Part shown: piece by piece, positions 35,657 to 46,866 of the stretch
How the letters are laid out: every line of letters begins with the position of its first letter
How positions within the stretch are numbered: position 1 is the first letter of the stretch
NCBI GenBank assembly: GCA_030651135.1
Contig: JAUSCS010000010.1
Span: forward strand, 1-64,000
Direction of reading: 5' to 3'
From: Candidatus Woesearchaeota archaeon
GTDB lineage: Archaea > Nanobdellota > Nanobdellia > Woesearchaeales > JACPBO01
DNA: 64,000 nt
The notes under the pieces: generated by a model
Databases searched by the model: none
Told to the model about the DNA's origin: nothing
Seen by the model: the letters and a program-made list of their open reading frames with translations, nothing else
Program-made: the position numbers and the translations under genes

Positions 35657-36790
35657 TCATCTAATCTCATGATGTTTTATAAAGTCAATTATCCTGCCTA
35701 GAGTTTCTTGTTCCCCTTTGTATAAATTATACTCGTCTGCCAGCGTATCGCCTTTTAAAGGAAGATCAGAAACATAGCCCGCAAACCCAAAGTTTATGTC
35801 AAGAAACCTGTGAAACCATCTTCTTGCGTCATTTACTGCTTCTGCGCTTTCCCTGCTTTCCAGCTCCACACATATGCAGCCATTTTTCCTTGCCTCTTCA
35901 AGCTGTTCAATAGACTCATCTACTAGAGTGGGCACATTGAAATTTAACTCGCTCTTGCCTTGAGCTAAAACATTATGCATCGGATACTCAAATCTTTTTC
36001 CGTTTTTTAGGTCAACATCATCAATGATTGCTGTCGGATAAACCAGATCATTCCTTTGCATATTCTCCTCTAAGCCGCCTACACGACCAAACATAAATAA
36101 ATCAATTTCCAGTTTTTTGCCTTCATTTTCCGCTAGTGCTGCATATTCCCTAAGCATCTTATATATTATGTGTTTTGCCTGATCAGCATAAACAGGGCCT
36201 ATGTTCAATATCTTCTCACCTTTTATTTCAGTTATCTGAGCATCCAGATATTCGCTTTGGCCCTTTGCAATAATCTTGGTTGCTTTTGCTACGGCATCTA
36301 TTGAGCCAAAAATAATTTTTCTTATATCCTTGATATCACAACTCGGGAATACTCTTCTGTCCTTGTATTTTTCTGAAGGAACAAACAAGCCGGCTACAAA
36401 ATCATAGGCGTGGTTTTCATAGTAAATGTTTGCATCTCTTTCGTTATTGTTTAAATGGCGAATTTCAAATTCCATATTTTTTCCGCTAACTGCAATATAC
36501 TCTTCAATCAGCCGCCTGTACCTCTCTCCTCTTCCAAATCCGCTGTATTGAGGTATAAGCAATGTTCCTTTTCCGAAAGGAGGCCCGTAAAAATAGATAG
36601 GTTCACGCCCATTCTCCTGTACAACTCTTTCAAAATCACCATGCTCCCTGCGAATGATCTGTTCCAGTGACGAAGGCAGACTTCCGTTATAAAGCTCGAT
36701 TTTTCCGATATCCTCAGGAGCCAAGTTTCTGCCAAAAAGCCTTGTTTCAGCATACTTGATCAGTTTTCCTTTTGTGAATATTGAGATCAT
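35657..36790 (-). CDS. Nucleoside phosphorylase/nucleosidase-like protein
   Basis: A 377-residue protein. In its second half the pattern FGRVGGLEEN, NDLVYPTAIIDD, FNVPTLVDES and CVELESRESAEAVND resembles the PNP/UDP-phosphorylase fold (Gly-Gly loop, the GD-V step, and the ribose-binding Glu in M/LE-S). The N-terminal 150 residues are not recognised. Such enzymes cleave nucleosides or nucleotides to base plus ribose derivative. The ATG at 36790 is one base after the stop of a ribbon-helix-helix gene. Location divergent from nrtR suggests a role in nicotinamide or purine nucleoside salvage; this is inference. Confidence 0.4.
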   Translation of the reverse strand: MISIFTKGKLIKYAETRLFGRNLAPEDIGKIELYNGSLPSSLEQIIRREHGDFERVVQENGREPIYFYGPPFGKGTLLIPQYSGFGRGERYRRLIEEYIAVSGKNMEFEIRHLNNNERDANIYYENHAYDFVAGLFVPSEKYKDRRVFPSCDIKDIRKIIFGSIDAVAKATKIIAKGQSEYLDAQITEIKGEKILNIGPVYADQAKHIIYKMLREYAALAENEGKKLEIDLFMFGRVGGLEENMQRNDLVYPTAIIDDVDLKNGKRFEYPMHNVLAQGKSELNFNVPTLVDESIEQLEEARKNGCICVELESRESAEAVNDARRWFHRFLDINFGFAGYVSDLPLKGDTLADEYNLYKGEQETLGRIIDFIKHHEIR

Positions 36791-36791
36791 T

Positions 36792-36935
36792 TTATTGTTT
36801 TGCCTCTTCAAAATATGTTCTTAAAGCCTCTTCAATCACATGGCTTTTGCTCCTGAAAAGCCTGTTTTTGGCCATAGCATCATTTATTCCAAGAATCAGA
36901 TCCTGCTCTATTGTTACGCTTAACTTATGCCTCAT
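36792..36935 (-). CDS. Ribbon-helix-helix DNA-binding protein, 47 aa
   Basis: Encodes MRHKLSVTIEQDLILGINDA followed by a helix-turn-helix-like pair RSKSHVIEEALRTYFEEA. This is the MetJ/Arc pattern: an N-terminal DNA-reading strand (KLSVTIEQDL) and two helices. A TATA box (ATTTATAAAT, 36958-36967) lies about 25 bases upstream of the ATG at 36935, so a leaderless start there is most likely; an in-frame ATG at 36956 would lie too close to it. It is coupled to the nucleosidase-like gene and may regulate that operon, its own promoter and perhaps nrtR. Confidence 0.7.
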   Translation of the reverse strand: MRHKLSVTIEQDLILGINDAMAKNRLFRSKSHVIEEALRTYFEEAKQ

Positions 36936-36937
36936 AG

Positions 36938-36997
36938 GGTAGTATGATGCACTCATCATTTATAAATCTTTCTATTTTTAACTACTTTATGGTAGTT
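36938..36997. promoter_or_regulatory. Possible ribbon-helix-helix operator sites
   Basis: GGTAGT half sites occur at 36938-36943 and 36991-36996, the second within an inverted repeat AACTAC-N6-GTAGTT (36980-36997). They flank the TATA box of the RHH gene in the divergent promoter region. Confidence 0.3.
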
Positions 36998-37014: not shown

Positions 37015-37043
37015 TTTAAATATTACTGTATTTATTACACTAT
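37015..37043 (+). promoter_or_regulatory. nrtR TATA box and NrtR box 1
   Basis: TTTAAATA at 37015-37022 is followed at once by a 21-base box at 37023-37043 that matches TTAGTGTAT-ATA-ATACACTAA at 17 of 21 positions. It ends two bases before the ATG at 37046. Binding here would block initiation, implying autorepression. Confidence 0.7.
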
Positions 37044-37045
37044 CG

Positions 37046-37705
37046 ATGGAGGAATTTAAAAAAGACAGGTTCTATATTGCAGTAGATGCTGTAGTCTTTA
37101 CCATATTGGATAAAGAGCTCAAGATCCTCCTGATAAAAAGAAAAAACGATCCTTCTAAAGGCAGATACGCCCTGCCTGGCGGGTTTGCAGAGCTAGATGA
37201 AAATCTTGAAGATGCCGCAAGGCGTGAGCTGGAAGAAGAAACGGGCGTAAAGAATATTTTCCTGAAAAAGCTTCATGCTTTTGGCGATGTTGGCAGGGAT
37301 CTCCGCGGCAGGGTTATTACAATCCCTTTTCTCGCTTTAATAGATGGCGATAAAATAAAGCTTAATTCGACATCTGATGCGGAATTGGCAAGATGGTATC
37401 CTATTGACCGGCTTCCGGAGCTGGCATTCGACCATAAAAAAATTATTGACGATGCGCTGCAGCATTTAAGATTTGAAATGCAGAATACAAACATTGCATT
37501 CCAGATGATGCCTGAGAAGTTCACATTGACAGAACTGCAGCAGGCGCATGAAATAGTGCTGGATAAAAAGATAGATAAGAGGAATTTCAGGAAGAAGATC
37601 GGTGAATTAGGGATATTAAAGGGGCTGACGGAAACAAAAATGGAAGGAGCTCATCGCCCGGCAAAGCTTTATTCTTTTAAATCTAAAACATACAAAATGC
37701 TGTGA
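37046..37705 (+). CDS. nrtR: NrtR-type regulator of NAD metabolism (Nudix + winged helix)
   Basis: A 219-residue protein. Residues about 8-145 are a Nudix domain with an intact box G46-x5-E52-x7-R60-E-L-x-E-E-x-G67-V, and residues about 150-219 a winged helix (TLTELQQAHEIVLDKKIDKR and FRKKIGELGILK, ending YSFKSKTYKML). This is the build of NrtR, which senses ADP-ribose and represses NAD genes in bacteria. The ATG at 37046 is chosen because the conserved protein starts there. It lies directly upstream of the pncB operon, and matching operators precede nrtR, pncB and nadK. Confidence 0.85.
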   Translation: MEEFKKDRFYIAVDAVVFTILDKELKILLIKRKNDPSKGRYALPGGFAELDENLEDAARRELEEETGVKNIFLKKLHAFGDVGRDLRGRVITIPFLALIDGDKIKLNSTSDAELARWYPIDRLPELAFDHKKIIDDALQHLRFEMQNTNIAFQMMPEKFTLTELQQAHEIVLDKKIDKRNFRKKIGELGILKGLTETKMEGAHRPAKLYSFKSKTYKML

Positions 37706-37737: not shown

Positions 37738-37770
37738 TTTATATACTTGTTAGTGTATATAATACACTAA
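37738..37770 (+). promoter_or_regulatory. pncB operon TATA box and NrtR box 2
   Basis: TTTATATA at 37738-37745, then a 21-base palindrome at 37750-37770 with perfect 9-base arms TTAGTGTAT and ATACACTAA around a 3-base centre. The position just behind the TATA box suits repression. Confidence 0.8.
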
Positions 37771-37802: not shown

Positions 37803-37823
37803 TAAGTGTATAAAATACAATAA
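37803..37823 (+). promoter_or_regulatory. NrtR box 3
   Basis: A second, weaker box for the pncB operon, matching box 2 at 18 of 21 positions, in the leader 15 bases before the ATG at 37838 and 53 bases (five helical turns) after box 2. Confidence 0.65.
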
Positions 37824-37837
37824 GTAAATGAGAAAAA

Positions 37838-39175
37838 ATGAAAGAAAACAAAACAATGCTTACGGACCTGTACCAGCTGACAATGAATGCAGCCTATTTT
37901 GATAACGATAAAGATGATGCTGCAACATTTGACCTGTTTATAAGAAAACTTCCAAAGGACTGGGGGTATTTCATAGCCAATGGAATTGAAGATGCTGTTG
38001 ACTATTTAACAAACCTAAGATTCGAGGAAGATGATATAGCTTACTTAAGAGAACAAGGGATCTTCAATGAAGATTTTCTGGAGTTCTTGAAGGATTTCAA
38101 ATTTGAAGGAGATGTTTATGCAATAAAAGAAGGAACTCCGATATTCCCAAATGAGCCAATATTACGGGTAACTGCAAAAAGAACCCAGGTGCAGTTTGTT
38201 GAAAGCGCCTTATTGAATATTATAAATTTTCAAACAATGATCGCAGCCAAAACAAACAGGGTTGTAAATGCCGCTAATGGTGCAGGGGTTGTTGATTTTG
38301 GCTTAAGAAGGGCGCAAGAAGAAGATGCTGCAATAAAGGGAGCAAGAGCCGCTTATATCGCCGGAGCAATAGCAACTTCAAATGTTAAAGCCGGAAAGGA
38401 ATATGGAATCCCGATAAATGGCACTCAGGCGCATAGCTTTGTAATGGGCTTTCCTACTGAATTAGAATCATTCAGAGCTTATGCTAAAACATTTCCGAAC
38501 AATCCAACTTTGCTGATTGATACTTATGATACGCTGCAAGGAGCAAGAAATGCCGCAGTTGTTGCAAAGGAACTAGAGCAGCAAGGCAGGAAGCTTGGGG
38601 CAGTAAGGCTTGACAGCGGGGATTTGGCAGATTTATCAAAAAAAGTAAGAGCAATCCTTGATGAGCAGGGCCTTAATTATGCCAGAATAGTTGCAAGCAA
38701 TGATCTCAATGAATACAAGATAGATGACTTAGTGAAAGCAGGAGCTCCAATTAATGGCTATGGTGTTGGCACAGAGATGATAACAGCCAAGCCAGTTGCC
38801 GCGATTCCTGGCGTCTATAAGCTAGTAGAAGATGATGATGGGGCAAAGATCAAATTAAGCAATGAAAAAAGAACATTGCCTGGCAAAAAACAAGTTTACA
38901 GAATAGAAAATAAGGGAAAATATGAAAAAGACATAATTGCTTTAGAAACCGAACAAATAGAAGGAAAACCCCTGCTGGAAAAAGCAGTTCTTAATGGCCA
39001 GAGAGTCAGAGAAAGAAGAGAGCTAAAAGAAACAAGGCAATACTGCTTGGAAGAAGTTGCAAAACTTCCTGATGAATTAAAACAGCTTAGAGTTGATCAA
39101 CAATACACTATCGAGTTAGCTCCAGCTTTAAACAATTTAGTGGAGCAATTAACAAAACAATATGGAGGCGGGTAA
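37838..39175 (+). CDS. pncB: Nicotinate phosphoribosyltransferase
   Basis: Makes nicotinate mononucleotide from nicotinate and PRPP with ATP hydrolysis (Preiss-Handler salvage). The 445-residue protein starts LTDLYQLTM, the family's N-terminal signature. It has DFGLRRAQ, the autophosphorylated His in NGTQAHSFVMGF, LIDTYDTLQGARNA, and the phosphate-binding RLDSGDLADLSK. It heads a seven-gene operon under two NrtR boxes, followed by a 73-residue gene one base later and by nicotinamidase, which supplies its substrate. Confidence 0.95.
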   Translation: MKENKTMLTDLYQLTMNAAYFDNDKDDAATFDLFIRKLPKDWGYFIANGIEDAVDYLTNLRFEEDDIAYLREQGIFNEDFLEFLKDFKFEGDVYAIKEGTPIFPNEPILRVTAKRTQVQFVESALLNIINFQTMIAAKTNRVVNAANGAGVVDFGLRRAQEEDAAIKGARAAYIAGAIATSNVKAGKEYGIPINGTQAHSFVMGFPTELESFRAYAKTFPNNPTLLIDTYDTLQGARNAAVVAKELEQQGRKLGAVRLDSGDLADLSKKVRAILDEQGLNYARIVASNDLNEYKIDDLVKAGAPINGYGVGTEMITAKPVAAIPGVYKLVEDDDGAKIKLSNEKRTLPGKKQVYRIENKGKYEKDIIALETEQIEGKPLLEKAVLNGQRVRERRELKETRQYCLEEVAKLPDELKQLRVDQQYTIELAPALNNLVEQLTKQYGGG

Positions 39176-39176
39176 A

Positions 39177-39398
39177 ATGGACCAAGAACGAGCGAGAGCA
39201 GTTGTTAAAGATGCGCAGGGCAGAATGCATCTCTTGCTGCAGGAAAGGAAATATGCGGAAGACGAGCAAATCAGACAATTTGATGCCGTAACTGTAGACG
39301 TGCCTTTAGGAGATCGGCAAGCAAAGCCCCAGTACTATATTTTGAGGATAATCGAGCAAAAGAAAGAGCAGGATTACCAGAGGAGGTGGGTGAGATGA
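39177..39398 (+). CDS. Small hypothetical protein in the NAD operon, 73 aa
   Basis: Starts one base after the pncB stop and ends overlapping the pncA start (ATGA), so it is translated as part of the operon. The charged product (KDAQGRMHLLLQERKYAEDE, then VTVDVPLGDRQAKPQYYILR) has a short beta-rich middle and no known motif. The beta-rich middle might be a trimmed Nudix-like or OB-like piece, but similarity is too weak to call. It may be an accessory subunit for a neighbour. Confidence 0.65.
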   Translation: MDQERARAVVKDAQGRMHLLLQERKYAEDEQIRQFDAVTVDVPLGDRQAKPQYYILRIIEQKKEQDYQRRWVR

Positions 39399-40153
39399 GG
39401 ATATTCTACGATGTAGACACGCAAAACGACTTCATGAACAAGAATGGAGCATTGTATGTGCCTGATGCAGAATTAATAAAGCCAAATTTAGCGAAACTAA
39501 CATGTTTTGCTAAAGAGAAGAATATTCTTATTGCAGGAAGTGTTGACAGGCATTTTGGCACTGAAGAATATAAATGCAGAGAAGGAGAACTGCAAAGATG
39601 GGGCGGGCCTTTCCCAGACCATTGTATGAATGGAAGCAAAGGAGAATTGAAAATTTATGATACCGCTCTTCATGTCTACCCAACCAGATCAGGAGGTCCA
39701 GTAACAGACAGGGACTTTGATGCAGGAAGATATATTGCCCATGAGAGGGAAACAAGTTCAATAAAAGAAAAACTGAGATGGGCTAACAATATAATGGATG
39801 TTAATGGGAATCTGATTCTTCTTTACAGAGACCCAAAGAAAGAAAATCTTCCAGTATATTTTGAAAAACAGAATTATGATGTTTTTACAAACCCTGCTGC
39901 AGATTATTTTTTCCAAAGACTGCTGAAAGCCAGAAGATTTGACAAAGAAGCAGTAGTCTACGGCGTGGCAACAGATTATTGTGTCAAGGCAGCAGTTCTA
40001 GGAATGCAGCAAAGAGGAGTTCAATGCTATGTTGTAGAAGATGCAATCAAGGGGGTTGATCCAAAAACAACTGAAGCAGCTATTGAAGAAATGAAAAAAG
40101 CAGGAGCCAAATTTATCAATACTAAAAAAGTTTTGGAGGAAATAATAAAATAA
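39395..40153 (+). CDS. pncA: Nicotinamidase (isochorismatase family)
   Basis: Hydrolyses nicotinamide to nicotinate, feeding PncB. 252 residues with the catalytic triad of the family: Asp8 in DTQNDF, Lys158 in FEKQNYDVF and Cys196 in ATDYCVKAA; DRHFG (Asp51, His53) and PDHC supply probable metal ligands. The protein is longer than many PncA proteins because of an insertion around residues 85-130. Translation is coupled to the preceding 73-residue gene by ATGA overlap. Confidence 0.9.
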   Translation: MRIFYDVDTQNDFMNKNGALYVPDAELIKPNLAKLTCFAKEKNILIAGSVDRHFGTEEYKCREGELQRWGGPFPDHCMNGSKGELKIYDTALHVYPTRSGGPVTDRDFDAGRYIAHERETSSIKEKLRWANNIMDVNGNLILLYRDPKKENLPVYFEKQNYDVFTNPAADYFFQRLLKARRFDKEAVVYGVATDYCVKAAVLGMQQRGVQCYVVEDAIKGVDPKTTEAAIEEMKKAGAKFINTKKVLEEIIK

Positions 40154-40164
40154 AGGTGTTTCAT

Positions 40165-41034
40165 ATGGAAGTGCAAACATACAGCATCGTCATAGGAACT
40201 GAGGCATGCAATGCAAGCTGCCCTTATTGCGTATCTAAAATGACCCCCCAGTTAGGTGTTGAAAATAAGCATGTAGATGTTAACTGGAGAAATTTTGACA
40301 TAGCAGCAAGATACGCTAAAGATTGCGGTGCATCTACTGTGCTTTTAACAGGTAAAGGAGAGCCAACCTTGTTTCCAAATCTTATAACAGACTATATGAA
40401 ACATTTGAAAGATTATAAATTTCCTTTTATCGAGCTTCAAACAAACGGCATAACTTTGGCAGAATCAGCCTATGACAAATACCTCAAAGAATGGTGCGAT
40501 CACGGCATGACCTTAGTAGCGATTTCAATAGCGCATTATGATGCAGAGAAAAACAGAGAGATCTACCTGCCAAAAAGAAAACAATATTTTGATTTGGAAG
40601 GTCTGATAAGCAAACTTCATTCGCAAAAATTCAGTGTAAGATTGTCATGCACGATGCTTAAAGACTACATTGATGATATTGCGGGAATAGAAAAATTGGT
40701 GGAGTTCGCAAAAAAGAACGATGTAGAGCAGCTGACAATAAGGCCGGTAAGAAAACCAGAGTCAAGCAGGAACGATGAAATTTTTGATTGGGTTGACAAG
40801 CATGCTGTTGATAATGATGCCCTTAAACGCATAAAAGATCATCTTGATGCAAATGCCACTCTGCTCATGGAGCTTGCGCATGGCGCTGCAGTGTATGATC
40901 TTGGCGGCCAGAACATATGCTTTACTGATGCACTAACAATTGATCCAAAATCAAGCCAGATCAGGCAGTTAATATTTTTTCCTGACGGCCATCTCAGATA
41001 TGATTGGCAGTACAAGGGGGCGATCTTGCTATGA
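40165..41034 (+). CDS. Radical SAM enzyme within the NAD operon
   Basis: A 289-residue radical SAM protein with the standard motif C15-NAS-C19-PY-C22 and the SAM-binding GKGEPTLFPN (the GGE-like step) at about residues 56-66. The barrel continues with LQTNGI and a likely SAM-contacting TIRPVRKPESS. There is no C-terminal SPASM Cys cluster; one Cys occurs in GGQNICFTDALTID near the end. An AGGTG ribosome binding site supports the ATG at 40165 rather than the GTG at 40156. It overlaps the next gene by ATGA. Its reaction is unknown; the operon suggests a pyridine-nucleotide-related or NAD-dependent substrate. Confidence 0.85.
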   Translation: MEVQTYSIVIGTEACNASCPYCVSKMTPQLGVENKHVDVNWRNFDIAARYAKDCGASTVLLTGKGEPTLFPNLITDYMKHLKDYKFPFIELQTNGITLAESAYDKYLKEWCDHGMTLVAISIAHYDAEKNREIYLPKRKQYFDLEGLISKLHSQKFSVRLSCTMLKDYIDDIAGIEKLVEFAKKNDVEQLTIRPVRKPESSRNDEIFDWVDKHAVDNDALKRIKDHLDANATLLMELAHGAAVYDLGGQNICFTDALTIDPKSSQIRQLIFFPDGHLRYDWQYKGAILL

Positions 41035-41984
41035 AACAATTAAAGGCAATGAATGCAGTCTACAGTTATTATTTTCCAGAAGTTAGAAAGTTAATAGATG
41101 ATTTAATTAAAGATTATCCGCACGAAATATTTTTAACATCAAGCAATGTAAACTTAGACCAGTTTCATGAGCCAGTACTTGAAAAACTATTGAAGTTTTA
41201 TGCAGGCGCTGTTCCTGATCTAAAAAATTTCAGATTTGCATATCCGACATCCGGCTCAAGTGAAGGCATCAGGGAGTATTTAACTTTATTGCAATCTAGA
41301 GGAGTTAATCAGATTTATGTGCTGAAAGGCGAGTATGAAGGCTTTAAAGAAACTGCCAAAACCAGAAATATTGCTGCTGTTGAAATTGATTTAGAAAAAA
41401 CATCACCATCTAAACTAGAAAAAGGATTATGGTTCATATCCAACCCTTCAGCTAGGGATGGCAATATAATTCCTAACGAAACAATAATGGATATATGCGA
41501 GTCAGGGCACAGAATATTTTACGACATGGCGTATGTGGGCTCCACTACGCAGTATAAATTTGATGTCAATCATAAAAATATAGAAGCCGCCGTGATATCA
41601 TTGAGCAAGCCATTTGGGTTATTCCGTTATAGAGTGGGGTTTACTTTCAGTAGAAATGATGTTCCTTCACTTTACTCTAATAAATGGTTCAAAAGTATTC
41701 CTGCCCTTTTAATCGCAGAAAAGATTTTTGATAATATGGAGGTTGATGAATTATACGCTAAATACAGGCCAGTTCAGAAAAAAATTATTGAAGAGATCAA
41801 TGATGAGTTTAAGCTAGCTATACAACCTAGCGATGCGATACTTTTAGGTTACTTGCCAAAAGATGACGCAGCCAAGCTTGACAAAAGTTTGCAGGAATTA
41901 ATAGCTCCGTTTGAGAGAGGAGATAACTATAGGTTTTGTTTAACACCTTATTACGAACAAAAAGAAAAGGAGAAACCAAAATGA
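41031..41984 (+). CDS. PLP-dependent aminotransferase-like enzyme within the NAD operon
   Basis: A 317-residue fold-type I PLP protein: cofactor-phosphate segment TSGSSEGIREYL, NPSARDGN (Asn138-Pro139), Asp165 and Tyr168 in FYDMAYVG for the pyridine ring, and Lys193 with Arg201 in SLSKPFGLFRYRVGF. This is a shortened class I/II aminotransferase, about 60-80 residues smaller than usual. Overlaps of four bases link it to the radical SAM gene before and to nadE after. Together they look like a two-step modification pathway. The substrate is unknown; aspartate- or amino-acid-derived compounds are plausible. Confidence 0.8.
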   Translation: MKQLKAMNAVYSYYFPEVRKLIDDLIKDYPHEIFLTSSNVNLDQFHEPVLEKLLKFYAGAVPDLKNFRFAYPTSGSSEGIREYLTLLQSRGVNQIYVLKGEYEGFKETAKTRNIAAVEIDLEKTSPSKLEKGLWFISNPSARDGNIIPNETIMDICESGHRIFYDMAYVGSTTQYKFDVNHKNIEAAVISLSKPFGLFRYRVGFTFSRNDVPSLYSNKWFKSIPALLIAEKIFDNMEVDELYAKYRPVQKKIIEEINDEFKLAIQPSDAILLGYLPKDDAAKLDKSLQELIAPFERGDNYRFCLTPYYEQKEKEKPK

Positions 41985-42889
41985 ACCTCGAAAAAAGAAT
42001 AAAATTAGCACAAATGGACCCAGAACTTGTAGCAGGCGAAATTGGGAATTTCATAGTCGAAAGAGTGCTTAAATTCAAAAAAACAGGCGGCGTGATTGGA
42101 TTGTCCGGCGGTGTGGATTCAACAGTAGCGGCAGCATTGGCAAAAAGGGCCTTTGATGCTTACAATAAAAATCACCTAGAAAATCCACTGGAATTAGTTG
42201 GTTATATCTTGCCTTCTAAAACAAACGATCCAAAAGACGCAGAAGATGGAATTAAAGTTGCAAAAAGGCTCTGCATAAGATACGAGATCAGAAGCATTGA
42301 AGATATTGTGGAAGCTTACAAAGTAACAAATCCAGAAGCCCTTAATGATAGATATCACAGAGGGAATTTAACTTCTGAAATGAGAGCAGTAGTTCTTCAT
42401 GGAAAAGCTGCCACAGAAAATAAATCAGTTATTGGAACAGGCAATCGCGATGAAGATTATGGATTGGCTTATTACACTCTCTTCGGAGATGGAGCAGTGC
42501 ATATGAGCCCACTAGGCAGGTTGCCGAAAAGATTAGTGCGGCAAATGGCGGTTTATGTTGGATTTGGAGATCTAGCATATAGAATTTCAACTCCTGGATT
42601 AGAGCACGGCCAAACTTCTTTCAAGGATCTTGGCTATGACTATGAATTTTCCGAAGTGGTGTTGGAAGGGCTTGATCAGGGAATTAAGCCTGAAGATCTT
42701 ACTGCGCATTGCCAAATTATCCCATATGCAAAAGAGCAGATAAAAAAATACACACAATTGCACGGCAAGCCCAAGTTCACCAAAGTCGAGGAATTTATTG
42801 ATGATATTATTATTAGGCATAAAGTTGCTCTTGAAAAATCAAAGCTTGTAAGCCCGAAGATTGCAAAAATCACCTTGAGGTGCGATTAA
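41981..42889 (+). CDS. nadE: NAD synthetase, ammonia-dependent
   Basis: Amidates nicotinate adenine dinucleotide to NAD. The 302-residue protein has the ATP pyrophosphatase loop LSGGVDST at residues 41-48, GTGNRDEDYGLAYYTLFGDG for binding the deamido-NAD and ATP, and SPLGRLPKRLVR. There is no N-terminal nitrilase domain, so ammonia or a separate glutaminase must supply nitrogen. Its ATG overlaps the stop of the PLP gene, and a Nudix gene follows one base after its own stop. Confidence 0.93.
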   Translation: MNLEKRIKLAQMDPELVAGEIGNFIVERVLKFKKTGGVIGLSGGVDSTVAAALAKRAFDAYNKNHLENPLELVGYILPSKTNDPKDAEDGIKVAKRLCIRYEIRSIEDIVEAYKVTNPEALNDRYHRGNLTSEMRAVVLHGKAATENKSVIGTGNRDEDYGLAYYTLFGDGAVHMSPLGRLPKRLVRQMAVYVGFGDLAYRISTPGLEHGQTSFKDLGYDYEFSEVVLEGLDQGIKPEDLTAHCQIIPYAKEQIKKYTQLHGKPKFTKVEEFIDDIIIRHKVALEKSKLVSPKIAKITLRCD

Positions 42890-42890
42890 A

Positions 42891-43430
42891 ATGAAAGATG
42901 TGCTAATGCCCGGTAAAAATGATGAACTTGTTTATGAGGGCCACGTAAAGCTGGTAAGAAGAAAATATGACGGCCGCTATTATGATGTTATTGTTTCAAA
43001 AAACGCCTGCGCCATAATGTACATTGACCAGGAAGATTTTGTTTGGCTTGTTAAACAATATAGGATTCCTATAGCTAAAGAAATAATTGAGCTTCCAGCA
43101 GAGACCATGGACAAACCAGGCAAATCCTCTTTGGAGGTTATTGTTGAAGGATTAGAAGAGGAATGCGGAATAAGGATAGACCAAAAACAAGCCCATTTTT
43201 TTGCAACAATTGGCTCAAGTGAAGGCCACGATACTGAAATGGTTGATTTGTATTATGCCTATGGCCCGCATACAAAAACAAATCAAAGGCTAGAGGATAC
43301 AGAAAAGATTGAGGTTGTTAGGATTCCGTTTTATCAGGCGTATAAGATGATCAGCACAGGCGAAATTCAGGGATCAAAAACTGTCGCCTTACTTCAAAAT
43401 GAATATATAAAAAGACTGGAGAAAACGTAG
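42891..43430 (+). CDS. Nudix hydrolase-like protein with degenerate Nudix box
   Basis: A 179-residue protein of the ADP-ribose pyrophosphatase type, with ELPAETMDK before the box and GLEEECGI at its end. The usual G-x5-E-x7-REL-x-EE-x-G reads here as E for the first Gly and EG for Arg-Glu; the terminal EE-x-G is kept. Catalysis may be weakened or altered. Members hydrolyse ADP-ribose or NADH, products of NAD turnover, which fits its position as last gene of the pncB operon. Confidence 0.8.
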   Translation: MKDVLMPGKNDELVYEGHVKLVRRKYDGRYYDVIVSKNACAIMYIDQEDFVWLVKQYRIPIAKEIIELPAETMDKPGKSSLEVIVEGLEEECGIRIDQKQAHFFATIGSSEGHDTEMVDLYYAYGPHTKTNQRLEDTEKIEVVRIPFYQAYKMISTGEIQGSKTVALLQNEYIKRLEKT

Positions 43431-43486
43431 AATACTTGCAAAACCTTCTTTTTTAAATTATAATATGTGCAAAAAAATCCGAAACA

Positions 43487-43519
43487 TTTATATAATAGTA
43501 AGTGTATTGTATACACTAA
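43487..43519 (+). promoter_or_regulatory. nadK-nadA-nadB TATA box and NrtR box 4
   Basis: TTTATATAAT at 43487-43496 followed by the 21-base box at 43499-43519 (TAAGTGTAT-TGT-ATACACTAA). The arrangement is the same as in front of nrtR and pncB. Confidence 0.8.
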
Positions 43520-43542: not shown

Positions 43543-44295
43543 ATGAGAGCTGCAATAGTAGACAAAGCAAGTGCACTGGAAGAGCATAAAAACACGATTT
43601 CTCTAATTGAAAGGCTGTTGAAAAAATACAGCTCTTCATATGAAATAATAGCTAAAGAAGACCTAAATAAAGCACTGGATGATTTTGATTTGGTAATAGC
43701 TGCCGGAGGAGACGGAACCTTGCTTTACACTGCCTCTTTTGTTGATTCAGCTTTAGTATTAGCTGTTAACTCTGCGCCGCAGCATAGTGTTGGCAACCTG
43801 ACATCTGCTAATGCATCTGATTTAGAAGAGAAATTAGGCAGATTTTACAAAGGCTATTTTTCTGTATTGAACAGGACAAGGCTGAATGTTGAAATTGATT
43901 CAAAACACGTGGGATTGGCGCTAAATGAGATATATATGGGAAGCATAAAGCCTTTTGGGATAGCTGCAAGATATGCAATAAAGGTTGATGATAAAGAAGA
44001 AGAGCAAAAAAGCTCAGGCATCATTGTTTCAACCGGAACTGGATCAACAGCAATGTTCAAGCATTTTGGAAAAGCATTTAAAGCAAATGCCGATTATGCC
44101 AAATATGCCGCCGTATTTCCTATTGGAAACTATAAGCTTATCGGCGGGAAAGTAAGGGAAATAACAGTAATTTCAGGCATGACTAAAAACGATTTGTTGA
44201 CAATTGATGGATGGCAAGATTTTAATTATGGCCATAAAACCATAATAAGAGTTAGCATTGCAGACAAGCCATTAAGAACAATAGAGTTTGGTTAA
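43543..44295 (+). CDS. nadK: NAD kinase
   Basis: Phosphorylates NAD to NADP. A 250-residue protein with the catalytic AAGGDGTLLYTA loop, LAVNSAPQHSVGNLT (in place of the usual NxGxxGFL) and GIIVSTGTGSTAM, followed by the beta-sandwich C-terminal domain. The unusual NSAPQHS loop is also seen in a divergent archaeal branch. I chose the ATG at 43543, behind the operator; a longer in-frame extension would start before the promoter. It heads the operon nadK-nadA-nadB, with nadA starting one base after its stop. Confidence 0.9.
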   Translation: MRAAIVDKASALEEHKNTISLIERLLKKYSSSYEIIAKEDLNKALDDFDLVIAAGGDGTLLYTASFVDSALVLAVNSAPQHSVGNLTSANASDLEEKLGRFYKGYFSVLNRTRLNVEIDSKHVGLALNEIYMGSIKPFGIAARYAIKVDDKEEEQKSSGIIVSTGTGSTAMFKHFGKAFKANADYAKYAAVFPIGNYKLIGGKVREITVISGMTKNDLLTIDGWQDFNYGHKTIIRVSIADKPLRTIEFG

Positions 44296-44296
44296 A

Positions 44297-45199
44297 ATGG
44301 ATGAAAAAATATTAATCCAAAAAATAAACAACCTGAAGAAAGAGAAAGATGCAGTCATATTGGTCCATAATTACCAAAGGCCCGAAATCTACAAGGTAGC
44401 TGATTTTATTGGCGATTCGCTTGAGCTCAGCAGAAAAGCAGCTGAGACTAATGCAAAGATCATTGTATTCTGCGGCGTTGATTTCATGGCAGAATCTGCA
44501 AAGATACTGAATCCTGAAAAGAAAGTGCTGCTGCCTGCCTTGGAAGCAAAATGCCCGATGGCTGCAATGGTAACAGCAGAGGAATTGCTTAAGGAAAGGA
44601 AGAAATACAAGGATGTGGCTGTTGTTTCTTACATAAATACAACCGCAGATGTAAAGGCAGTCTCGGATATTTGCTGCACTTCTTCAAATGCAGTCAAGGT
44701 TGTTAATTCGCTTAAAGAAAAAAACATTATTTTTGTTCCAGACAGGAATCTTGCGGATTATGTTGCCAGATTCACAAGCAAAAAGATAATCCCCTGGCAG
44801 GGATATTGCTATGTTCATGCGCGGTTTTTGGCTGAACAAATAAGAGAAGCAAAAAAACAGCACCCTGCTGCAGTTGTTATTGCTCATCCAGAATGCCCCG
44901 CTGATGTAATAGATGAAGCAGATTCTGTATGCTCGACATCTGGGATGATTGAGCTTGCCAAAAGCTCAGATTCCAAGGAATTCCTAATATGCACGGAGGC
45001 AGGAATGGTTGAAAGGCTCAAGATTGAAGTGCCAAATAAAACATTTTATACATTGGGAACAATCTGCCTGCAGCAGAAAAAGAACAATCTGCAGAAGGTT
45101 TATGACTGCCTGAATAATGAAACAAATGAAGTTGATGTGCCTGCGAAGATAAGAAAAAATGCAAAGAAGGCATTGGACAGGATGCTGAGAGTAAAATGA
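44297..45199 (+). CDS. nadA: Quinolinate synthase
   Basis: Condenses iminoaspartate with dihydroxyacetone phosphate to quinolinate using a [4Fe-4S] cluster. The 300-residue protein has HNYQRPEI near the N-terminus, FCGVDFMAESAKIL, and the three cluster Cys in LEAKCPMA, WQGYCYVH and LGTICLQQ, plus PECP and STSGM for substrate binding. The dihydroxyacetone phosphate comes from the triose pool handled by TpiA and GapA. Coupled by ATGA to nadB, which supplies iminoaspartate. Confidence 0.95.
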   Translation: MDEKILIQKINNLKKEKDAVILVHNYQRPEIYKVADFIGDSLELSRKAAETNAKIIVFCGVDFMAESAKILNPEKKVLLPALEAKCPMAAMVTAEELLKERKKYKDVAVVSYINTTADVKAVSDICCTSSNAVKVVNSLKEKNIIFVPDRNLADYVARFTSKKIIPWQGYCYVHARFLAEQIREAKKQHPAAVVIAHPECPADVIDEADSVCSTSGMIELAKSSDSKEFLICTEAGMVERLKIEVPNKTFYTLGTICLQQKKNNLQKVYDCLNNETNEVDVPAKIRKNAKKALDRMLRVK

Positions 45200-46866
45200 G
45201 CGGTGCAAGAGATCTGATAAAAACAGATTGCGGAGTTATAGGCGGCGGCTTTAGCGGCTGCGCAGTTGCGCTCGAACTGGCAGAAGCTGGCAAAATGGTT
45301 GACTTATTTGTCAAGGGCAAATTAATAGAAGACTGCAACAGCTATTTGACAGCTGGCGGCCTGGCAGCAGTTCCATTAGTGGGTGGAAAGCCTCTTAATG
45401 GAGATTCCTTTGAAAAGCATATCACAGAAACATTAATTGCAGGAAAAGGCCTTAATGATGTTAAGATTGTTAAATTCTGCGTTGAGCATTTCTACAGCGA
45501 TGTTATAGAATGGCTGATTGACAAAGGCGTTAAATTTAATCTGTCTGAAAAAGGCTATGAATACGATCTGCACAGGGAAGGCGGACATTCAAGGAACAGG
45601 ATCTTCCATGCTAATGACACAACAGGCGTGCAAATAATGAAGACGCTTGGCAGATTAGTGAAAAACAACCGCAACATAAGGATTCATGAAGAGCATGTTG
45701 CAATTGACTTAATAACGAAGAACAAGTTAGAAAAAAGAAAAGAAATTAAGACAAAAGCAAAGGATGCCTGCCTGGGGTTTTATGTTTATGACGCTAAAAA
45801 AAATTGTGTTAAGGCAGTTTCGTGCAAAGGAACATTCATTGCAACAGGCGGCCTTGGAAAAGTTTTTCTTTACACAACCAACTCAGATGTTGCGACAGGC
45901 AATGGCTTTGCAATGTGCTACAGGGCAGGCCTGCCGTTGGCGAACATGGAATTCATACAATTTCACCCGACTGTGTTTTATGACCCGTCTGCTGTCAATG
46001 AATACAGCAGAAGATTCCTGCTTACAGAGGCGCTTAGGGGAGCAGGCGCAATACTAAAGCTAAGAAAAAATTCAAAAAAAGATTTTGTTTTGAAATATCA
46101 TCCACTTGGATCAAAAGCAACAAGGGACGTTGTTACAAGAGCAGAAGATATTGAGATGAGGAAAAATGGCCTGGCGCATTTATGGCTGGACTGCGCAAAA
46201 ATAGACAAAAAAAGATTAAAAGAGGATTTCAGGAATTCTTACGAATTCTGCTTAGCCAAGGGAATTGACATAACAAAAGAGCCCGTGCCTGTCATCTATG
46301 CTGTTCATTATTCAAATGGGGGTGTGCTTGTCGGCCCGAATTCAGAAACAAAAATGAGAGGATGTTATGTCATAGGTGAAACTTCTTATACTGGCCTGCA
46401 TGGAGCAACAAGACTGGCAAGCAATTCTGCGCCAGAATGCATTCTATTCGGCAGGCTGGCTGCAAAGCATTTTTTAAAGCTCAGGAATCATGCAAATATA
46501 AATGTCCCATTATGGGATGCAGGCTCTGCAAACGATATAAAAGACAAGACCGCCATAGCCTATTATTGGGAAACTGTCAGAAGAACAATGACTTCATTGT
46601 GCGGAATATCAAGGAATAAAGAGAGGCTGAATGCCGCAAAGCAGGTATTATCCGCGCTCAGAAAAAACATAAATGACTTTTATTGGTCTTATTACATAAC
46701 CAAAGATTTCCTGGATGTGAGAAATATAGCGGATGTTGCCAGCATAATTGTAGACAGCGCCCTTGTAAGGGAAGAATCCAGGGCATGCCATTTCAGGGAA
46801 GATTTTCCAAAGCAGAACGACAAGAAATTCAAAAAATTAACAATAGTGAAAAAATCTCAACCTTGA
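45196..46866 (+). CDS. nadB: L-aspartate oxidase
   Basis: Flavoprotein that oxidises L-aspartate to iminoaspartate with oxygen or fumarate as acceptor; in an anaerobe fumarate or another acceptor is expected. 556 residues with the FAD motif IGGGFSGCAVALELAEAG, HSRNRIFHANDTTG, EFIQFHPTVFY, TEALRGAGA, HYSNGGV and the closing family segment EESRACHFREDFP. It has the helical C-terminal domain of the succinate dehydrogenase/aspartate oxidase family. It ends the nadKAB operon. NadC, the next enzyme, is not in the window. Confidence 0.92.
   Translation: MSGARDLIKTDCGVIGGGFSGCAVALELAEAGKMVDLFVKGKLIEDCNSYLTAGGLAAVPLVGGKPLNGDSFEKHITETLIAGKGLNDVKIVKFCVEHFYSDVIEWLIDKGVKFNLSEKGYEYDLHREGGHSRNRIFHANDTTGVQIMKTLGRLVKNNRNIRIHEEHVAIDLITKNKLEKRKEIKTKAKDACLGFYVYDAKKNCVKAVSCKGTFIATGGLGKVFLYTTNSDVATGNGFAMCYRAGLPLANMEFIQFHPTVFYDPSAVNEYSRRFLLTEALRGAGAILKLRKNSKKDFVLKYHPLGSKATRDVVTRAEDIEMRKNGLAHLWLDCAKIDKKRLKEDFRNSYEFCLAKGIDITKEPVPVIYAVHYSNGGVLVGPNSETKMRGCYVIGETSYTGLHGATRLASNSAPECILFGRLAAKHFLKLRNHANINVPLWDAGSANDIKDKTAIAYYWETVRRTMTSLCGISRNKERLNAAKQVLSALRKNINDFYWSYYITKDFLDVRNIADVASIIVDSALVREESRACHFREDFPKQNDKKFKKLTIVKKSQP

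Follow-up and report, generated by a model that had tools for sequence, protein, structure and literature searches.

The genomic organization around positions 40165 to 41984 of the window (the whole 64,000-nucleotide stretch analysed here, from genome G000, which has 1.4 Mb in 13 contigs) points to an operon for NAD supply controlled by the repressor NrtR, in which a radical SAM enzyme of an apparently undescribed family, here termed TGKGEP after its signature motif, is accompanied by an optional PLP enzyme. That both genes belong to the NAD regulon is almost certain, and small-molecule chemistry in NAD supply is their probable role. Whether the substrate is a nucleotide is a close call, leaning slightly to the negative, and the complete proposal, including the mechanism outlined below, stays tentative and somewhat short of an even chance.

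The operon runs along the forward strand in the order nrtR, pncB, a 73-aa ORF, pncA, radical SAM, PLP, nadE, nudix and nadK-nadA-nadB. The first gene (37046-37705) encodes a Nudix-type NAD repressor (PF21906, E 1.7e-25; NF050029, E 8.9e-48, under the cut-off); its listed ORF begins at 36944, and the likely true start at 37046 is suggested by the operator and by the protein start MEEFKKDRFY. It is followed by a nicotinate phosphoribosyltransferase gene, pncB (37838-39175; NF006696, E 5e-172, 572 bits against a cut-off of 503), by the 73-aa ORF (39177-39398), which matches no family, and by a pncA-like nicotinamidase gene of the isochorismatase fold (39395-40153; PF00857, E 1.2e-19; NF008623, E 2.3e-15, under the cut-off). 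The radical SAM gene (40165-41034; 289 aa) opens with an ATG 11 bases past the pncA stop (40151-40153) and is succeeded by the gene of a fold-type I PLP enzyme (41031-41984; 317 aa) and by nadE (41981-42889), an ammonia-type NAD synthetase without a glutaminase domain (PF02540, E 5e-40; TIGR00552 above the cut-off). Downstream lie a Nudix hydrolase of the ADP-ribose pyrophosphatase type (42891-43430; TIGR00052, E 9e-16, 58 bits, below the cut-off of 79.55), a nadK-like NAD kinase under the equivalog cut-offs (43543-44295; the listed ORF begins at 43465, and the start given here is suggested by the operator), the quinolinate synthase gene nadA (44297-45199; TIGR00550, 358.8 bits, above the cut-off) and a nadB-like L-aspartate oxidase gene (45196-46866; TIGR00551, E 3e-130, 435.4 bits, slightly below the cut-off of 452.75).

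A preliminary description of this DNA had placed the pair between nicotinamidase and NAD synthetase and joined it by ATGA overlaps. Pfam and NCBIfam calls on the flanking genes agree with that placement, and the reading frames show one ATGA (41031-41034) common to the radical SAM stop and the PLP start and another (41981-41984) common to the PLP stop and the nadE start. It had also remarked that the window lacks nadC and an NaMN adenylyltransferase gene; indeed, TIGR00078 finds no NadC in the whole G000 genome, and there is no NMNAT match in the window. Genome-wide, the only two PF01467 matches of G000 are a CoaD-CoaE fusion-like and a RibL/TagD-like protein, and no NMNAT was identified. In the sister genome of the same genus (G001, with its NAD locus L004), an NMNAT gene (NadM; L004 9137-9670) sits between nadE and nudix and NadE is longer, apparently glutamine-type, whereas the window has the ammonia-type NadE and no NMNAT at the corresponding place. 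Near the operon we also observed a 384-aa protein without a family (35657-36811, reverse strand), kept in the sister genome and in L021 (10001-11143, reverse strand) and weakly similar to nucleoside phosphorylases (HpnG model, E 0.04).

The regulatory sites provide additional clues on the role of the pair. NrtR is an ADP-ribose-responsive repressor whose regulons consist of NAD homeostasis genes (PMC6800001). In the window, an NrtR-type operator with one mismatch, TACTGTATTTATTACACTA (37024-37042), ends 3 bp upstream of the likely nrtR start; pncB is preceded by TTAGTGTATATAATACACTAA (37750-37770) and by a second, weaker copy, TAAGTGTATAAAATACAATAA (37803-37823), and nadK by TAAGTGTATTGTATACACTAA (43499-43519). 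The last three are palindromes of the form TWAGTGTATA-N-ATACAMTAA, of which shuffled sequences are expected to hold none, and all three are conserved in G001 (that of nadK at L004 11096). Allowing at most one mismatch, TAGTGTA-N5-TACACTA occurs at three sites in the whole 1.4 Mb genome, before nrtR, pncB and nadK; the reversed control pattern is also found at two sites, so the operator argument is one of position and conservation, which suggest that the palindrome is the binding site of NrtR. The operon thus combines an NrtR gene with a palindromic putative operator common to other NAD genes, and control by NrtR, formerly just asserted, gains the support of predicted operators before nrtR, pncB and nadK.

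The same palindrome accompanies the pair away from NAD genes. In six loci of Collierbacteria and Woesebacteria the radical SAM and PLP genes stand alone beside ribosomal or str genes, and in all six the palindrome ends 1-2 bp upstream of the radical SAM start (fewer than 0.0005 expected per 120 bp); since two of these loci hardly differ from each other, the number of independent cases is about four or five. Every one of these genomes has NrtR, and in them a TAGTGT-N7-ACACTA variant (two mismatches) precedes nadC-nadA-nadB, with further sites before an NMNAT-like and an NAPRT-like gene. An exact site is also found in L008, before pncA and pncB, a gene that we call PARTX (see below) and a PLP relative. 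A literature search covering few subscription journals returned no report of radical SAM or PLP genes as members of an NrtR regulon. As a separate observation, NrtR-type palindromes in the Collierbacteria G441 and G432 (L171 1556-3017 and L173 1581-3017) precede a pair of genes, named by eye, resembling a PP2C-type phosphatase and a protein kinase, possibly unexpected members of the regulon.

To assess linkage in other lineages, loci were labelled with the window proteins and verified relatives. Relatives in public records come from Nanoarchaeota, Aenigmatarchaeota, Nanohaloarchaea, CPR bacteria (Levybacteria, Collierbacteria, Woesebacteria), one Deltaproteobacterium and one Caulobacterales contig. 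The distribution is patchy: 23 of 371 genomes of the window's phylum have the radical SAM enzyme, divergent branches counted in, 7 of the 371 have the PLP enzyme, and a single genome among 380 of one CPR phylum has the former, so the step is dispensable. Nonetheless, core NAD genes lie within 6 kb in 20 of the 29 cellular loci of the radical SAM family versus none of 10 other, divergent radical SAM genes of the same phylum (Fisher p=1.5e-4). The preliminary description had proposed looking for co-occurrence with NAD genes across genomes, the opposite outcome being homologues mostly outside NAD loci, and the former is what we find; moreover, six of the other nine loci are preceded by the operator, so that, counting operators, 26 of the 29 are tied to NAD. 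The remaining loci L009, L018 and L132 showed no core NAD genes within 6 kb and no operator. Some labels are weak: in L006, L011 and L014 the isochorismatase-like proteins are divergent and have no matching model, but other NAD genes are present there.

Most of 20 further loci keep the two genes together. Twelve radical SAM-PLP loci fall within NAD operons in differing gene orders, such as nrtR-pncB-rSAM-PLP-pncA in L010 (Levybacteria), rSAM-PLP-pncA-like-nadE in L011 and L014, and nadA-rSAM-PLP-nadD-nudix in L019. In eight other NAD loci (L127-L131, L133, L137 and L143) the radical SAM gene occurs without a PLP gene, as in L127 (nrtR-naprt-pncA-rSAM-nadE-nudix-nmnat) and L133 (pncB-rSAM-pncA-nadE). 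The earlier suggestion of a two-step route therefore survives in part: linkage and operator support membership of NAD metabolism for both enzymes, but an obligate unit is ruled out by these eight loci, by the viral records and by loci in which the PLP gene is paired with PARTX. Since the radical SAM gene has no PLP gene with it in many genomes, a fixed sequence of two steps is not the general rule. The scatter across lineages and the occurrence in viruses might be read as the mark of a mobile cassette of unrelated function that lands in NAD loci by chance. Yet NAD contexts recur in varied order, translational overlaps are present and the operator is kept before the stand-alone pair, and we give this scenario very little credence. 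Also recurrent near NAD loci is a protein of ~520 aa (L006 4715-6280, L017 11455-13014, L019 14961-16463) with an N-terminal PGRH segment and, in L006, a methyltransferase domain in its C-terminal half.

The radical SAM enzyme belongs to its superfamily by the Radical_SAM domain (PF04055, E 1.8e-11, 45 bits against a cut-off of 29.5) and by the motif CNASCPYC, whose cysteines C15, C19 and C22 are present in 21 of 21 family sequences. The family mark, TGKGEP, is a GGEP motif longer by one residue, and K64, R159, R193 and R267 are invariant, which would fit an anionic substrate. By profile, the nearest families are MoaA and viperin, both acting on nucleotides, although as judged from sequence this likeness is generic for small radical SAM enzymes. 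Assignment to either was rejected, viperin at 36.3 bits against a cut-off of 180 (NF038283) and MoaA at 50.6 against 284 (TIGR02666) and 47.1 against 325 (TIGR02668). No curated family of Pfam or NCBIfam claims this enzyme or the PLP enzyme, each specific model lying far below its cut-off, in agreement with the earlier remark that neither has a place in known NAD routes. Two further arrangements were observed among divergent radical SAM genes: in L132 (3884-5520) a divergent gene of the family lies directly 3' of a gene resembling F420-0:glutamyl ligase (CofE), while L134, L135, L138, L139 and L140, outside NAD loci, carry tandem pairs of CNANCDFCAGKYLR and CNAHCAHCAG types with a TSSGEP motif, often beside an ATPase-like and a CYTH-like gene.

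Many radical SAM families are maturases, and weak matches to maturase models were obtained. In an alternative scenario, the enzyme would thus modify a protein of the operon (NAPRT or NadE) or a small peptide, for which the 73-aa ORF offers a candidate, with the PLP enzyme as a side partner. However, a SPASM/twitch enzyme is ruled out by the alignment, in which no auxiliary-cluster cysteines are found and C252 alone is conserved beyond the core three. Furthermore, no precursor peptide or neighbour is common to the loci, the NAPRT and NadE of carrier operons come from several different families, and the 73-aa ORF was seen in just the two congeneric genomes G000 and G001. Maturation is, in our estimation, distinctly unlikely.

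The PLP enzyme is a fold-type I protein (Aminotran_1_2, PF00155, E 3.5e-9) with its catalytic residues intact: the Schiff-base lysine K193 (in SLSK), D165, R201 and R301 are found in 24 of 24 sequences. In the aminotransferase fold a conserved arginine binds alpha-carboxylates, and we take R301 to be its equivalent. Given that the Schiff-base lysine, the PLP-binding aspartate and this arginine are kept, an amino acid is the likely substrate or donor. Structure prediction, earlier proposed for both members of the pair, was obtained for the PLP enzyme, whose model is a plain fold-type I structure (Foldseek probability 1.00). Neither HisC (TIGR01141, 34 bits against a cut-off of 276.55) nor CobD (TIGR01140, 31.9 against 290.55) was accepted as its identity. 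A distant relative (24% identity) was seen in L035, from Pelagibacter phage Mosig (MT647606), in a region rich in radical SAM, hydroxylase, methylase and reductase genes that resembles a small-molecule pathway.

Among close PLP relatives, each readable neighbourhood has either the radical SAM gene or PARTX beside the PLP gene. PARTX encodes a protein of ~285 aa, unrelated to the radical SAM enzyme, in L008 (2930-3787), L024 (3092-3988) and L026 (9151-10008), and in the viral loci L036 (9566-10453), L037 (9217-10050), L040 (8854-9699), L041 (9562-10470) and L043 (7839-8669). It takes the place of the radical SAM gene, adjoining the PLP relative or sitting one to two genes off; the PLP relative has about 30% identity to the window's enzyme, and 55% in L008. 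The PARTX proteins form one family (20-68% identity; E 1e-8 to 1e-30 in the comparisons made of distant pairs) and share the motif YxLH(E/D)xxH followed by an E...S...E helix of the NExxAS.SE type. No match was found in Pfam, PHROG or PADLOC. The predicted model is confident (pLDDT 92.6) and gave no match in the PDB (best E 0.79) or among viral structures (best E 0.16), so that assigning a function by fold failed and PARTX is a candidate new fold. Its position suggests that PARTX substitutes for the radical SAM enzyme. Elsewhere in the same contigs, a NAMPT-sized PF04095 gene occurs in four of nine PARTX-type viral records, a weak association.

The occurrence of NadA without NadC raises the question of whether the pair opens a second way to the pyridine ring or bypasses NadC, with nicotinate or NaMN formed from quinolinate or some other compound. 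In G000, NadA and a NadB-like protein are present and NadC is absent; NadA without NadC is also the state of G001, G436, G317/G438 and G444. Nevertheless, most carriers lack both NadA and NadC and about eight possess both, with no consistent trend over about 40 genomes, and viruses hold the radical SAM gene alongside full salvage sets. Because most carriers are also without NadA, the pair is not a general NadC substitute; the survey shows no complementarity and disfavours a general NadC or de novo bypass, a reading that we consider very unlikely.

The radical SAM profile also matches 45 viral contigs (viral being the IMG/VR label, under which mis-assigned cellular DNA can be held), with identities of up to 52% over full length. 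In the family tree, cellular and viral members are intermixed and the labels switch many times. The viral relatives often adjoin pncA, pncB, nadD or nadE. NAPRT (PF04095) was found in 10 of the 36 radical SAM viral records tested, in addition to a divergent NAPRT in L046, and in 7 of the 10 its distance from the radical SAM gene is about 2 kb or less (rough chance product 4e-11; two of the seven are close relatives). No PLP gene was detected in these 36 records, which may be fragments. Annotated phage records gave weak matches only (24-29% identity), for example Pelagibacter phage Mosig and unannotated huge phages; the L026 proteins have no relatives among them, and the PLP relative of L024 has no match among plasmids. 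A viral copy could bear on the upkeep of NAD during infection.

These viral contigs, holding the radical SAM gene with NAD salvage genes, lend some appeal to another explanation, namely that NAD or a precursor is converted to a modified pyridine nucleotide, for instance one resisting NAD-cleaving defences, much as viperin forms ddhCTP or as SbzP acts. The similarity to viperin and MoaA and the Nudix gene within the same operon are in line with it, and for SbzP it is established that a PLP enzyme can use both NAD and SAM (PMC11610977, PMC10491745). On the other hand, the enzyme is not a member of the viperin family, and control by a repressor of NAD supply fits supply better than consumption. 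We regard NAD modification as unlikely, if less so than the other alternatives.

In this context, we put forward a supply-side role, favoured because NrtR represses NAD genes and responds to ADP-ribose. The radical SAM enzyme would cleave SAM, and the resulting 5'-deoxyadenosyl radical would remove a hydrogen atom from a small phosphorylated compound of the NAD-salvage pathway, with a pyridine nucleotide, be it normal, damaged or otherwise unusual, as the most likely candidate. The PLP enzyme might then perform amino-group chemistry on the product or, alternatively, supply a substrate bearing an amino acid, and the end product would feed the PncA/PncB/NMNAT/NadE route. In some lineages, PARTX with its HExxH metal motif pairs with the PLP enzyme and may carry out the radical or oxidative step in another way. 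In its broadest form, which we hold with still more reserve than the operon-level proposal, this would be an unrecorded branch of NAD metabolism in DPANN archaea and some CPR bacteria, small symbiotic cells, and in large viruses, in which a pyridine nucleotide is made or altered by a radical SAM enzyme, the change is brought to completion by a PLP enzyme and a metalloprotein of new fold replaces the former elsewhere, all under NAD-sensing control.

The pathways of NAD synthesis and salvage are regarded as fully charted. A radical SAM enzyme that NAD operons retain again and again points to a reaction absent from that chart, the more so as it is kept across two domains and viruses and under an NAD-sensing operator even outside NAD operons. 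Further members of the regulon could be sought by means of the operator, and the list of testable substrates is short. Both enzymes belong to known superfamilies, while the family appears undescribed, as do its regulation and the alternative partner; a literature search on radical SAM families in NAD metabolism, whose coverage left most subscription journals outside, gave nothing relevant by title or abstract.

Comparison with known systems places these genes among several familiar themes. As in described NrtR regulons, the repressor here combines Nudix and NrtR_WHD domains and palindromes precede NAD genes, although the element is TAGTGTA-N5-TACACTA rather than the mycobacterial GTTTTCGA-N7-TCGAAAAC (PMC6800001). 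With viperin and the prokaryotic viperins (ddhNTP synthases) the radical SAM enzyme shares a small size and a MoaA-like core (PADLOC pVip match, E 2e-11), but it has TGKGEP in place of GGEP and an NAD instead of a defence context. MoaA, the GTP 3',8-cyclase, is the top generic match (E 1.4e-13; PDB 2fb2, E 7e-8) and likewise has a nucleotide substrate; it carries a second Fe-S cluster, whereas in the present family a lone cysteine, C252, is conserved beyond the core motif. PLP enzymes of the HisC, CobD, MppP and GntC types have the same fold (TM 0.59-0.68) and the same catalytic lysine, aspartate and two arginines, yet show just 11-18% identity to the enzyme described here, which has a shorter N-terminus and motifs of its own, GEYEG and NKWFK. 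In butirosin biosynthesis, a radical SAM dehydrogenase step by BtrN is followed by PLP amination by BtrS, so that this order of events is a known logic; BtrN has an auxiliary cluster, in contrast to the single extra conserved cysteine of the TGKGEP family. Finally, SbzP of the altemicidin pathway, likened here by its published description, belongs to a natural-product cluster and not to an NAD regulon, with no radical SAM partner named in the portion of that description drawn upon, but as a PLP enzyme using NAD and SAM as substrates it sets a precedent for PLP chemistry on NAD (PMC11610977).
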